Shown here: positions 1 through 16,502 of the stretch, piece after piece
Layout: each line of letters opens with the position of its first letter
Numbering within the stretch: the first letter of the stretch is position 1
Assembly (NCBI GenBank): GCA_007127655.1
Contig: SKYX01000264.1
Span: forward strand, 1 to 16,883
Direction of reading: 5' to 3'
Origin: Desulfonatronum sp.
Lineage (GTDB): Bacteria; Desulfobacterota; Desulfovibrionia; Desulfovibrionales; Desulfonatronaceae
DNA length: 16,883 nt
Program-made: the position numbers and the translations under genes
The notes under the pieces: generated by a model
The model's database searches: none
The model's input: only the letters and a program-made list of their open reading frames with translations
What the model was told of the DNA's origin: nothing

Positions 1-1108
1 CGCCGAAGAACAGCCTGGAGGGATACTCCCGGGCGTCGTCCGTGATTTCCCGTATATTTTCACTGGTCCGCCCAAGGTTGTGCAGCAGGACGTCGATCTG
101 TTCCAGCTTCGAGGCCAAGCGAAACTGGATCTGACCCAGGAGCTGTTGAAAGCGTAAAAAACTCTCCTGGGCCGTGTCCGCGGCAGAGGAAAAATCCTCC
201 ACCATCTCCGGAGCATCGGCCATTGTCCGTCGCAAATCAATAATGGCGAGGCGTAAATCCTCCAGCCCGCCCTGCTCGGCATGGACCCATTTATTCACCT
301 CTTCGGCCATCCCCCGTACTTCGCGCATGGCCAGGGAGACGTCCTGAAAGATGGATTGCAGATCCACCCTCTCGCCCTGCCCCGCGGAATCGCCCGGACT
401 GCCCAGAAGACGGGCCACCTGAGCATTGGTCCGGCGCAGCTCTTCCATCAGGGCGATGGCCTCGACGCTGAACCGCTCAGTCTGCACCGCGTCGACCTTT
501 TCCATCGCCAAGTTCATAAGCTCTTCCAATCGTTCCAGCGGCTTGTTCAAGTTGATCCCTTCCAGATTCTTCAGTGTGGTGCTGACCGACTCGAATGTTT
601 CCTCAAACCGGGCGATGGTCCCCGGAGCCGAAGGGATATAGGGTGCGACGGGCGTCCAGTTGATGGGCAGAGCTGGAGCCCGGAAAGGGATACTATAGTC
701 CAGTTCCAGATAGGCCGCCCCGGTCAGTCCCTGGGGAGTGATCCGAATCCGCAGTCCGGTGGCGATTTCCTCGGCCAAGAGTTCCTTAAACCTGTCCCGA
801 GGAAAATCCCCGAATTTATCAGCCTGTAAGCCGATCTCCACCAGCACGTAACGGTGTCCGGCCTGGAACGCTTCGGGGTACTTGAGATAAACAAAGGATA
901 TTCGTTCAATATTGCCCACCTGGACGCCGCGCATCTTGACCACGGAGCCGGCTTCCAGGCCCTGGGCGGATTCGTCCAGATAGGTTTCCACGAGGATGTG
1001 CTCACTCCAGAGCTTGCCGCCGCCCAGCACGATCAGCCCGGCGAGAATCAGGGCTACGGTGATCAAGACGAAGGCTCCGAGTTTGACGTAGTTGGTTTGG
1101 ACGCTCAT
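1..1108 (-). CDS. mlaD: MCE-domain (MlaD-like) lipid-transport protein, partial at left edge
   Basis: Reading leftward from an ATG at 1108-1106 gives 369 residues with no stop before the window edge, so the C-terminus is missing. A membrane anchor lies at about residues 7-31 (YVKLGAFVLITVALILAGLI), followed by an MCE domain at about 38-120 with the family pattern GLEAGSVVKMRGVQVGNI. The remainder is a long, mostly helical region rich in Leu, Glu and Arg, as in long MlaD/Mce proteins rather than the short E. coli MlaD. MCE proteins bind lipid in the periplasm and work with an MlaE permease and MlaF ATPase, which are the two genes upstream. Its start overlaps the mlaF stop in an ATGA, suggesting translational coupling. 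There is no clear Shine-Dalgarno sequence, because the bases just upstream are a short repeat. Family assignment is confident; the lipid cargo and direction of transport are unknown. Confidence 0.9.
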   Translation of the reverse strand, partial: MSVQTNYVKLGAFVLITVALILAGLIVLGGGKLWSEHILVETYLDESAQGLEAGSVVKMRGVQVGNIERISFVYLKYPEAFQAGHRYVLVEIGLQADKFGDFPRDRFKELLAEEIATGLRIRITPQGLTGAAYLELDYSIPFRAPALPINWTPVAPYIPSAPGTIARFEETFESVSTTLKNLEGINLNKPLERLEELMNLAMEKVDAVQTERFSVEAIALMEELRRTNAQVARLLGSPGDSAGQGERVDLQSIFQDVSLAMREVRGMAEEVNKWVHAEQGGLEDLRLAIIDLRRTMADAPEMVEDFSSAADTAQESFLRFQQLLGQIQFRLASKLEQIDVLLHNLGRTSENIREITDDAREYPSRLFFG

Positions 1109-2001
1109 GGACTTAGGGGTTCAGGGTTCAGCGCTTCAGAGTTCAGCGGTTCAGGGTTCAGCGGTTCACGGTTCAAGGGTTCAGGAATTTCCCCCTTCCC
1201 CCTTCCAGATACATGGCGATGAAAAAAGTCGTGGACCATTGGGTCGGTGGAGTGGTCGCGCAGGGTTCTCGGGTCACCCTGGGCTACGATGCCTTGCCGG
1301 GATTTGTCCAGCATGATCACCCGGTCGGCGATGGCGAACACGCTGGCCAGTTCGTGGGTCACGATCACGAAGGTCATGCCCAGACTCCGGGCCAGATCCA
1401 GGATCAGAGCGTCCAGTTCCGCGGAGGTCACCGGGTCCAGGCCAGCCGAAGGTTCATCCAAAAACAGGACGCACGGGTCCAGGACCATGGCCCGGGCGAT
1501 GGCCGCCCGTTTGACCATCCCCCCGCTCAGCTCCGAAGGAGCGTGGTCCTCGAACCCAGCCAGCCCCACCTGGGCCAGCTTCATCCGCGCCACCCGCAGC
1601 CGCAAAGGTTTGGGCAGGTCCGTACACTCTTCCAGTGGCAACAGGACGTTATCCAAAACGCTCAGGGAGCCGAACAAAGCCCCGGTCTGGTAACTGACCC
1701 CGAAGCCATGCAGGATGCGCGTTCGTTCCGCCCCCCGGGCAGCGTGGACGTCCCGGTCGTTGATCAGCACCGAGCCGGACAGGGGCTGCTCCAGGCCGAT
1801 CATCTGCTTGAGTAACGTACTTTTTCCGCATCCCGAGCCGCCCAAAAGGATCAACACCTCACCGGGAAAGACGTCCAGGTCAACGTTCTGGAGGATGATC
1901 CGTTCACCGTAACCGGCCTTCAAGGCCCGGACCTGGATCAGTGGAGCGTGTCGGTCACCGGCTTCCACGCCGCAGGCCGTGGCATCAATAGTGAAAGACA
2001 T
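1105..2001 (-). CDS. mlaF: MlaF-type ABC transporter ATP-binding protein with repeat-encoded C-terminal tail
   Basis: This 298-residue cytoplasmic ATPase would power the MlaE/MCE lipid transporter. Visible motifs are Walker A GGSGCGKST (about 54-62), the signature LSGGMVKRAAIARAM (about residue 160), Walker B LFLDEPSAGLD and the H-loop VTHE. The ATP-binding fold ends near HDFFHRH (about residue 263), where MlaF proteins usually stop. About 35 further residues follow, the last 25 being five pentapeptides of the form EPLNx (residues 274-298), encoded by a 15-bp tandem repeat. The start ATG lies inside the mlaE 3' end (17-bp overlap) and the stop overlaps the MCE start by 4 bp. The ATPase identity is secure. 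The tail is odd and probably came from spread of an intergenic repeat into the gene; whether it is tolerated or functional cannot be told from sequence. Confidence 0.93.
   Translation of the reverse strand: MSFTIDATACGVEAGDRHAPLIQVRALKAGYGERIILQNVDLDVFPGEVLILLGGSGCGKSTLLKQMIGLEQPLSGSVLINDRDVHAARGAERTRILHGFGVSYQTGALFGSLSVLDNVLLPLEECTDLPKPLRLRVARMKLAQVGLAGFEDHAPSELSGGMVKRAAIARAMVLDPCVLFLDEPSAGLDPVTSAELDALILDLARSLGMTFVIVTHELASVFAIADRVIMLDKSRQGIVAQGDPRTLRDHSTDPMVHDFFHRHVSGRGKGEIPEPLNREPLNPEPLNSEALNPEPLSP
1108..1182 (-). repeat. In-frame 15-bp tandem repeat in the 3' end of mlaF (GGTTCA family)
   Basis: On the plus strand this region is a run of GGTTCA cores spaced alternately 7 and 8 bp apart, making a 15-bp period with point changes. 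On the minus strand the period reads roughly GAACCSCTGAACCSN and is a multiple of three, so it encodes five successive pentapeptides (EPLNR, EPLNP, EPLNS, EALNP, EPLSP) without a stop. The same core recurs at 15364-15418. The repetition is seen directly; an origin by expansion or insertion is inferred. Confidence 0.9.
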
Positions 2002-3121
2002 AATACAGCACCGCGAATATACCGTCCATGACCGCGATCAGGATGATCCCGCTGACAACAGCGCTGGTGGTCGCCGCTCCTACGGCCCAGGCCCCCTGTC
2101 CGGTCTGGAGGCCGCGTACGCACCCGATCCAGCCCACCAGCAGGCTGAAGATGAAAGACTTGAACAGCCCGTTGGCCAAATCCCCCACGCCCACGGAAAG
2201 AGTCACCTGATTGGTATAGCTCACCAGGGGATACCCCAGGGAAAACATGACCACGGCTCCGCCGATCAGGCTGAAGACGATGAACACCATGGTCAGCAGA
2301 GGCGTCATGCACATGGCGGCCAGCATCCTGGGCACCACCAGCAGCCGGACCGGGTCCAGCCCCATGGTGGTCAGGGCGTCCAGTTCCTGGTTGATCTTCA
2401 TGGTCCCCAGTTCCGCGGCAAAGGAGGCCCCGGAGCGCCCGGCCAAAATGATGGCCGTGACCAGCGGGCCGAGTTCCCGGATCATGGACAGCCCCAAAAG
2501 CCTGGCCACGTAGATCTCCGCGCCGAACATCCGCAGGGGCATGGCGGACTGGAAGGAGATGATCAGGCCCATCAGAAAGCCGATGAGCATGATGATCAGC
2601 ACGGCGTTGGCTCCCACGGTTTCGCAGCTCAGCCAGAAATCCCGCCACCGGATGCTCCCCGGACGTCGAAAGGCCTGGGCAAAGCCGGAGACGAACAGCC
2701 CCACGAAGCCCACCAGGTCGCGCACGTCCCGCCAAAAAGCCTGAGCCCCGCGCCCAATCCGCTCCAGTACCCCGCCGCGTCGCGCCGGAACCGCGGCACC
2801 CCGGCTCAGAGCCTGAAAGCGCTCCAGGCTCCCAGCCAGCTCCGCCCGCGGCCCGACCAGTTCCAGCCCTCCTCCCCTCGCCCGCAGTTCCTCATCGAGT
2901 TCCACGAACAAGGCCAACCCCGAAGCGTCAACGTAGCCAACGCCGGACACGTCCAGACGGAGTCGACTCGTCCCGGCCTTGCCCACGAGCCTCCGCAACC
3001 GCCGCCAGATAGCCCCCGTGCTTCGGACGTCCAATCGACCGGTCAGGGTCGCGGAAAAGGCGCCGGAAGCAGTGGAGGGATGTTCTTCAAGTTTTACTTG
3101 AGAGAAAAGTTCGGACTGCAC
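1985..3121 (-). CDS. mlaE: MlaE-type ABC permease with N-terminal STAS domain
   Basis: This 378-residue inner-membrane protein has two parts. Residues about 1-100 form a STAS domain (LRLDVSGVGYVDASGLALF), the fold of the separate MlaB subunit in E. coli. Residues about 115-378 form the MlaE permease domain, with conserved stretches such as LIISFQSAMPLRMFGAEIYV, IILAGRSGASFAAELGTM and ALTTMGLDPVRLLVVPRM and several hydrophobic helices. It would form the membrane channel of the lipid transporter with MlaF and the MCE protein. The start is a GTG at 3121-3119 with only a weak ribosome site. It lies 31 bp after the sugE stop, so co-transcription is likely. The STAS-permease fusion is known in many Gram-negative Mla-like operons. 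No mlaC or mlaA homologue is inside the window. Confidence 0.93.
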   Translation of the reverse strand: MQSELFSQVKLEEHPSTASGAFSATLTGRLDVRSTGAIWRRLRRLVGKAGTSRLRLDVSGVGYVDASGLALFVELDEELRARGGGLELVGPRAELAGSLERFQALSRGAAVPARRGGVLERIGRGAQAFWRDVRDLVGFVGLFVSGFAQAFRRPGSIRWRDFWLSCETVGANAVLIIMLIGFLMGLIISFQSAMPLRMFGAEIYVARLLGLSMIRELGPLVTAIILAGRSGASFAAELGTMKINQELDALTTMGLDPVRLLVVPRMLAAMCMTPLLTMVFIVFSLIGGAVVMFSLGYPLVSYTNQVTLSVGVGDLANGLFKSFIFSLLVGWIGCVRGLQTGQGAWAVGAATTSAVVSGIILIAVMDGIFAVLYYVFHY

Positions 3122-15363: not shown

Positions 15364-15418
15364 GGGTTCAACGGTTATGAAAGTTCAACGGTTCAATGGT
15401 TCACGGTTCAACGGTTCT
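15364..15418. repeat. Degenerate GGTTCA short tandem repeat (second copy)
   Basis: About seven GGTTCA-like cores (GGGTTCA, ACGGTTA, AAGTTCA, ACGGTTCA, ATGGTTCA, CGGTTCA, ACGGTTCT) run at 7-8 bp spacing immediately upstream of the coiled-coil gene. This is the same core, spacing and orientation as the repeat inside the mlaF 3' end 14 kb away. Here it is not translated unless the TTG at 15371 is used as a start. Confidence 0.85.
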
Positions 15419-15490
15419 GAAGCTGGAGGCAGGATCACAGCCCCTCGACTTGTCACTACCCGTCCTGTCGCCAAACATGCGACGTCTCTC

Positions 15491-15534
15491 TCTTCTGACT
15501 CCTGTCTCCTGAATTCTGACTCCTGAATTCTGTC
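15491..15534. repeat. Heptamer short tandem repeat (TYCTGNN)
   Basis: The plus strand reads as successive 7-mers TTCTGAC, TCCTGTC, TCCTGAA, TTCTGAC, TCCTGAA, TTCTGTC, giving near-perfect 14-bp units at 15507-15520 and 15521-15534. It begins three bases past the gmd stop codon. Together with the GGTTCA repeat it fills most of the 180-bp gap between gmd and the coiled-coil gene. The middle part (15419-15490) holds a 5-bp stem at 15467-15471/15479-15483 without a following T-run and nothing else I recognise. Confidence 0.85.
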
Positions 15535-15536
15535 TT

Positions 15537-16502
15537 CTATACCTTCACCCTCGCCTCGACCATCATCCGAACCACGTCCGGCATGGAGAACTTGGCTCGC
15601 CACCCTAATTCTCGCGCGGCCTTGGTCGGGTCGGCGCGACTGATCATGATGTCCGTGGGGCGGATGAATTCGGGATTGGTGCGCACATGGCGGGTCCAGT
15701 CCAGGTCAAGGCGCTCGAAAACCATTCGGACAAAATTTTCAAGGCTGAAGGTTTGCCCGGTGGCGATCACGTAGTCGTCCGGGGTGTCCTGCTGGAGCAT
15801 CAGCCACATGGCTTCCACGTATTCCGGGGCCCAGCCCCAGTCCCGCTGCACGTCAATGTTGCCCAGGGATAATTCGCCGCCCTCCTGGGCGATCCGACAG
15901 GCAGCGGCCACGATTTTCTGGGTCACGAAGCGTTCCGGACGCAGAGGGGACTCATGGTTGAAGAGGATTCCTGAGCAGGCGTAGAGACCGTAAGCCTCGC
16001 GATAATTGGCCACTTCCCAGAACGCCGCGGACTTGGCCACGGCATAGGGACTGCGTGGCCGGTACGGGGTCTCTTCGTTGGCGGGCACTCCTTGGGTATT
16101 TCCGAAGCATTCGCTGGAACCGGCGTTGTACAACCGTACCGGTCGTTCAAAAAAACGAATCGCCTCCAACAGATTGATCACCCCGACACTGATGCTCTCG
16201 AAGGTTTCCATCGGCTGTTCAAAAGACAGGCCCACGGAACTCTGACCGGCCAGATTGTAGATTTCGTCCGGATCGGAGCGAATGATGGCTTGCAACACGC
16301 TGCGAAAATCATTCACGGCCACGGAATACAGCGTGACCCGGTCCAGCACCTCCAGTTGCCGCAGGTTCGCGAACGAGGACATCTGCACGTCTCGGGACGT
16401 ACCGAAAACTTGGTAGCCCTTGTCCAGCAGCAGCTTCGACAAATAGGCCCCGTCCTGCCCGGAGATGCCCATGATCAGGGCTTTTTTTTGTTTTTTTGGC
16501 AT
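15537..16502 (-). CDS. gmd: GDP-mannose 4,6-dehydratase
   Basis: A 321-residue short-chain dehydrogenase/reductase-type enzyme that converts GDP-mannose to GDP-4-keto-6-deoxymannose, the precursor of GDP-fucose, GDP-rhamnose, GDP-perosamine and related sugars. The dinucleotide motif is G12-x2-G15-x2-G18 (GISGQDGAYL), and the catalytic pair is Tyr153 and Lys157 in SPYAVAK. Segments diagnostic of GMD are NLAGQSSVGLSFEQP, GSSECFG, FNHESPLRPERFVTQKI and the region around DVQRDWGWAPEYVEAMW. It is slightly shorter than the usual 340-370 residues. The ATG at 16502 is followed by two runs of A (7 and 8 bases) encoding KKQKK, with no evident Shine-Dalgarno sequence. No gene for a later step (fcl, rmd, per) is visible, so the final sugar is open. 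Confidence 0.96.
   Translation of the reverse strand: MPKKQKKALIMGISGQDGAYLSKLLLDKGYQVFGTSRDVQMSSFANLRQLEVLDRVTLYSVAVNDFRSVLQAIIRSDPDEIYNLAGQSSVGLSFEQPMETFESISVGVINLLEAIRFFERPVRLYNAGSSECFGNTQGVPANEETPYRPRSPYAVAKSAAFWEVANYREAYGLYACSGILFNHESPLRPERFVTQKIVAAACRIAQEGGELSLGNIDVQRDWGWAPEYVEAMWLMLQQDTPDDYVIATGQTFSLENFVRMVFERLDLDWTRHVRTNPEFIRPTDIMISRADPTKAARELGWRAKFSMPDVVRMMVEARVKV

Follow-up and report, generated by a model that had tools for sequence, protein, structure and literature searches.

Rickettsia offers the best-known palindromic repeats that lie in-frame, the Rickettsia palindromic elements (RPEs), which are described as elements integrated in unrelated metabolic genes and encoding a conserved peptide (PMC10969869). 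PARCEL repeats, coding repeats with dyad symmetry that are thought to have spread within genomes, occur in many clades as an amphipathic motif of 25 residues whose hydrophobic positions are conserved (PMC2996958). Marine Beggiatoaceae and some cyanobacteria carry direct repeats of the heptamer TAACTGA, most of which, in one genome, are found immediately upstream of start codons; read forward, they have stops in all three frames, so that they can only end an open reading frame (PMC4679880). Literature searches gave no paper describing such repeats either in histidine kinases or in Desulfonatronum, with most subscription journals outside their coverage.

Here we describe a repeat in Desulfonatronum, a sulfate reducer of soda lakes, that is translated as the end of MlaF, in a window (the whole stretch of DNA analysed) of 16,883 nt. 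The tail is an arm, situated at a gene edge, of a repeat family with 7/8-nt units in Desulfonatronum. This family appears to work like the RPEs, with which we compare it by their description only and among which we do not file it. The kinase-borne copies share with RPEs that they are dispersed short inverted-repeat elements inserted in protein-coding genes and translated in-frame within host proteins, but all 19 in-frame cores lie within hybrid histidine kinases, confined to two loops, rather than in many unrelated genes, and their peptide is unconstrained where that of the RPEs is described as conserved (PMC10969869). The first-pass annotation had likened the mlaF copy itself to the Rickettsia elements; this comparison suits the family as a whole, since its complete elements are found in-frame within histidine kinases, but the mlaF tail is an arm only, with no palindrome or hairpin. 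PARCEL differs in that the Desulfonatronum repeat is concentrated in one genus and its peptide is without constraint. The TAACTGA repeats are likewise short direct repeats of 7 nt; the Desulfonatronum units, however, are of 7 and 8 nt and of another sequence, the mlaF array holds stops in two frames only, and the arms are often paired as inverted repeats, with some lying after stop codons. Finally, MITE and REP elements are also small and dispersed with terminal inverted arms.

The mlaF tail and its variation among relatives

The gene mlaF, for the ABC ATPase of the Mla lipid transporter, occupies positions 1105..2001 of the minus strand and encodes 298 aa. Among NCBIfam models MlaF matches it best (E 2e-52), though the 178 bits fall short of the curated cut-off of 441; Pfam ABC_tran is found in the protein, and the gene adjoins those for MlaE and MlaD. 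The former (1985..3121, minus) is fused to an N-terminal, MlaB-like STAS domain (Pfam MlaE and STAS_2), while the latter (2..1108, minus; Pfam MlaD) is truncated at the contig end with 369 codons present. The sequence ATGA at 1105..1108 (minus) holds both the mlaF stop and the mlaD start.

The C-terminal end of MlaF reads HVSGRGKGEIP, followed by the five pentapeptides EPLNR EPLNP EPLNS EALNP EPLSP and by the TGA that overlaps the mlaD ATG; the five are the exact translation of 1108..1182 (minus), where a tail of five pentapeptides had been noticed. Directly before the tail lies a second, different heptad, TTCCCCC (2.6 copies, 1189..1206, plus strand), which is read within GRGKGE. The tail had been ascribed to a 15-bp repeat. 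The array is indeed periodic, but it is built of nine TGAA-bearing units (1118..1183, minus; GGTTCA-type on the plus strand) in a strict alternation of 8 and 7 nt (8,7,8,7,8,7,8,7), and it scores as lying 11 nt from the mlaD start. Of its minus-strand frames one contains five TGA and another four TGA and one TAA, and the mlaF frame alone is open. Tolerance of the repeat had been explained by a period that is a multiple of three; the frame is free of stops as claimed, but the family has no period of 15 and the openness comes from the strict 7/8 alternation. RNA folding gave no hairpin in the mlaF arm (z 0.34), and we rejected the idea that it is a palindrome in its own right.

The ABC fold had been placed as ending near residue 263, and this agrees with the MlaF model, which ends at residue 261, and with E. 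coli MlaF (6xbd), which is alignable over window residues 19-261, where its residue 245 corresponds to 261. In an AlphaFold2 prediction the block means are 92-98 for residues 21-260, and pLDDT falls below 50 over residues 265-297. The alignment behind this prediction had 19 rows, 15 of them from a MlaF profile scan of genome contigs that matched generic ABC patterns and named no Desulfonatronum among the 80 matches listed.

A protein search with residues 244-298 of the window MlaF gave five proteins out of 13 candidates. The cluster P0001, whose longest contig is 13,062 nt, has a single substitution relative to the window MlaF, at residue 15, and retains all five pentapeptides unchanged. P0002 is identical over residues 1-273 and is shorter by exactly two pentapeptides (10 aa), which leaves three, with one substitution in the remaining tail. 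The MlaF of Desulfonatronum lacustre, a single-contig genome, ends in KGETPEPINREPLLS (..EPINREPLLS), with two pentapeptides in the same frame as in the window, and P0004, which may be truncated on its 965-nt contig, ends KGETPEPLNR. D. thiodismutans MlaF has no pentapeptides and ends HVTGKDER, so the tail is not carried by all relatives. Such a change of length by whole pentapeptides beside an identical protein, with the tail absent elsewhere, lends good support to the original suggestion of a non-coding repeat tolerated in a gene. At the whole-genome loci inspected, the mlaF stop of G005 precedes the repeat units, which fall between genes; G001 has about one unit 3' of the mlaF stop, and G004 and G006 have none at the mlaF end. 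In a genome from a different taxonomic family (G021, locus L039), unrelated short repeats follow the mlaF stop, of GAAGGCT type and then of GGACTTT/GGACCTT type.

Tandem repeats are error-prone and the source genome is fragmented, in 439 contigs at 84% completeness, so the tail might be thought a sequencing or assembly error. We reject this reading as extremely improbable, given the identical five pentapeptides of the P0001 cluster and the identical frame, with two, of D. lacustre.

A functional role for the tail has to be weighed as well. In E. coli, MlaF residues 247-269 form the 'handshake' that keeps the ATPase dimer together, and MlaF without them does not function (PMC7367683). Since the alignment stops at E. 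coli residue 245, the repeat-encoded tail occupies the place of the handshake and could have been recruited as a C-terminal extension there; for the same reason an altered contact with MlaE and its STAS domain, as the first-pass annotation had proposed, is possible. However, the tail is variable in presence and length within the genus, is predicted to be disordered, and has no counterpart in a common motif at the C-terminal ends of nine aligned MlaF relatives. Over 30 homologous loci, of which some share no more than about 45-50% identity and could be paralogues, the residues after the fold range from 2 to 36, the window being the longest, with only 2-8 in 16 loci. The proposed contact thus receives no support, and we regard a functional tail as quite unlikely. 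In 7 of the 30 loci there are 20-30 post-fold residues of unrelated sequence, which indicates that a long MlaF C-terminal end is not peculiar to the repeat.

A repeat family at gene edges

The sequence GGTTCANNGGTTCA occurs at 62 + 62 = 124 places in the genome of the window (G000), while its reversed control occurs at 0 + 0, which puts the repeat family far beyond chance. It is present in seven of eight genomes of the genus (124, 41, 33, 21, 10, 3, 2 and 0 places; 234 in all against 1 for the reversed control), and outside the genus 22 of 93 genomes from the same order carry it, at 30 places in all, where the reversed control scored 16. A copy outside genes had been noticed within the window itself and is indeed found at 15383..15410 (plus strand), outside the ORFs called by script as longest frames and with a minus-strand ORF starting 27 nt away. 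The same gap holds another heptad array (15487-15538; CTTCTGA/CTCCTGA/ATTCTGA) that extends to the end of the 15537-16502 ORF.

In 60 fetched stretches and the window we recorded 95 arrays with at least three GTTCA cores. The stretches comprise 30 from G000, taken around those of the 124 GGTTCANNGGTTCA places that were listed (100), 17 from G007 and 13 from G005, where places on contigs after C8 fall outside the array sample and some entered as core loci. Other members of the family have mixed spacing, unlike the strict 8/7 alternation in mlaF. Many arrays are paired, a GGTTCA arm and a TGAACC arm flanking a spacer in the manner of MITE-like terminal inverted repeats, and four intergenic pairs picked by eye showed strong RNA folding (z -5.5 to -9.4). 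At L112, L114, L095 and L137 the spacers between inverted arms form long RNA hairpins that could affect mRNA processing or termination. A 110-nt core taken from one arm pair was found at 23 places in three of the eight genomes (13 in G000, 7 in G005, 3 in G007). Its hairpin exists in three matching versions (GGGCGCACC/GGTGCGCCC, GGGCGAAA/TTTCGCCC and GGGCGACC/GGTCGCCC) and is found in about 17 of 22 core sequences, being weak or lost in about five. The mlaF array is one arm of a larger element family, without the palindromic core. We considered whether a Y1 (REP-type) transposase moves the repeat and found no support for it: matches to this transposase family, the only one sought, do not follow the number of repeats, with 6 in G004 (0 repeat places) and 0 in G006 (21 places).

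Among 59 non-kinase arrays, mlaF's included, a gene edge lies within 60 nt 5' of GGTTCA in 37 (25 starts and 12 stops) and within 60 nt 3' in 9, where the gene calls are scripted, uncurated longest-ORF calls, edges that reach up to 40 nt into the array are also counted, and the split into kinase and other arrays was made by hand from the arrays listed. The GGTTCA arms thus tend to point outward from gene edges. Together with the units beyond the frame in G005, this is consistent with the non-coding origin that had been proposed for the mlaF tail.

Copies translated inside histidine kinases

Nineteen of the 23 core copies lie in-frame in hybrid histidine kinases, in two loops and three genomes; 17 of these were identified by script (open frame, long flanks) and the two at contig ends were read by eye, with kinase sequence on both sides. 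The receiver loop (..EATRRIRAAE / IPIIAMTA) holds 12 copies and the HATPase loop before ..VRDTGIGI holds 7, all 19 on one strand and in one frame, and Pfam was run on two of the core-bearing kinases. The other four places stand outside this picture: L270 and L272 are weak, partial and non-kinase, L273 is non-kinase with stops, and at L264 the core lies in a degenerate receiver domain where a stop stands upstream, possibly a decaying kinase gene. With one insert extended by about ten residues into each flank as query, a protein search gave 27 proteins out of 380 candidates. HATPase, HisKA and receiver domains are present in every one of the 27, and all 8 of the 8 that carry an organism name are Desulfonatronum. 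HATPase loops at L092 (about 40-110), L127 (ORF ~17092-17133) and L259 contain another translated repeat, like NAGMLECWNAGID, which is apparently derived from a GCATTCCA-type DNA repeat.

The kinase insert shows no protein-level constraint. Pooled over the 19 cores, pN is 0.281 and pS 0.258, with a median dN/dS of 1.15 (170 usable pairs). In an orthologous kinase trio (G000, G005 and G007) the insert dN/dS is 1.36, 1.52 and 3.32 over 56-63 codons each, compared with 0.220, 0.228 and 0.231 in about 1000 flanking codons, and a conserved, selected insert is rejected on these values. In the G004 orthologue (62% aa identical), from the genome with 0 repeat places, a short unrelated loop replaces the insert, and at that divergence a target-site duplication would not be recognizable. 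This lack of peptide constraint, taken with the matching hairpin versions, suggests that DNA features rather than the peptide look to be the preserved part of the element.

It must be added that 11 of the 19 inserts end exactly in ..VNREPLNREP, the others in variants, and that this frame is the MlaF tail frame. The EPLNREP frame common to the MlaF tail and the C-terminal ends of the kinase inserts could hint at a selected peptide, which would speak against neutrality.

Reading frame and origin of the tail

The alternation of 7- and 8-nt spacing avoids an in-frame TGA in arms whose translated strand bears stops. Inside kinases, the stop-bearing TGAACC-sense arms alternate in 29 of 29 steps (16 arrays), the GGTTCA-sense arms in 23 of 44 (20 arrays); mlaF alternates in 7 of 7 and the other arrays in 76 of 134 (58 arrays). 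The difference between the stop-bearing kinase arms and the other arrays gives a Fisher p of 7e-7, and arrays with any same-spacing step number 0 of 13 against 35 of 56 elsewhere (p 2.4e-5); both use the hand-made division into kinase and other arrays and treat arrays as independent, where some are paralogous or have a common insert. The comparison is partly circular because kinases with a closed frame would not be called intact, and the alternation in kinases therefore shows what translation requires and not its origin.

For mlaF, one account would be chance read-through, in which an ordinary gene-edge arm happened to be open in the mlaF frame and the frame is under no selection. One open case among 59 non-kinase arrays is not very improbable, mlaF can stop earlier, as in G005 and G001, and an array that grew from an open seed by 15-nt slippage would presumably remain open in the absence of selection. 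The strict alternation over eight intervals is harder to obtain in this way: a simulated nine-unit array with spacings drawn from the other arrays had some TGA-free frame in 2.3% of cases and the given frame in 0.8%, although this chance was computed after the mlaF array had already been seen to be open. Moreover, D. lacustre and P0002 are open in the same frame as the window mlaF. We consider chance read-through unlikely, yet a somewhat more credible reading than a functional tail.

The reading that we favour, and hold to be fairly likely, joins three elements: a gene-edge arm tolerated as disordered protein, a frame kept by coupling of mlaF and mlaD, and a peptide that is neutral. The arm sits directly 5' of the mlaD start codon and, owing to the overlap of mlaF and mlaD, falls within the mlaF end. 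The array would change length in 15-nt steps (one 8-nt and one 7-nt unit), presumably by replication slippage. Such steps preserve the sole TGA-free frame, with the result that mlaF still terminates at the mlaD start and translational coupling of both genes can persist; the tail peptide would be a disordered, functionally neutral by-product. The mlaF frame is thus probably maintained by coupling. In 20 of 30 homologous loci the stop of mlaF overlaps the start of the following gene (at L060 that start is doubtful), so frame-keeping could matter at mlaF, while G005, G001 and G004 have no mlaF-mlaD overlap, which means that coupling is not indispensable in the genus. Neutrality was measured on the kinase inserts and is extended from them to the short mlaF tail.

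A broader reading, which we advance tentatively and with less than even confidence, is that the repeat system marks the edges of coding segments, its inverted 7/8-nt arms standing near gene ends and at the ends of kinase domain loops. If this is true, a frame-safe repeat, made so by selection or by its spreading mechanism, would move between spacer DNA and protein loops, the alternating 7/8 spacing would be what makes the stop-bearing kinase arm readable, and MlaF would be an arm caught becoming protein.

Within one free-living genus, spacer DNA may be followed into protein in stages, from copies outside genes through a variable tail to kinase loops. The process would leave a signature in the reading frame that can be counted, in that 7/8 spacing alternates only where translated copies are read on the stop-bearing strand, and the presence of the family in two kinase loops of a sulfate reducer would make the tolerance of such elements testable in laboratory strains.
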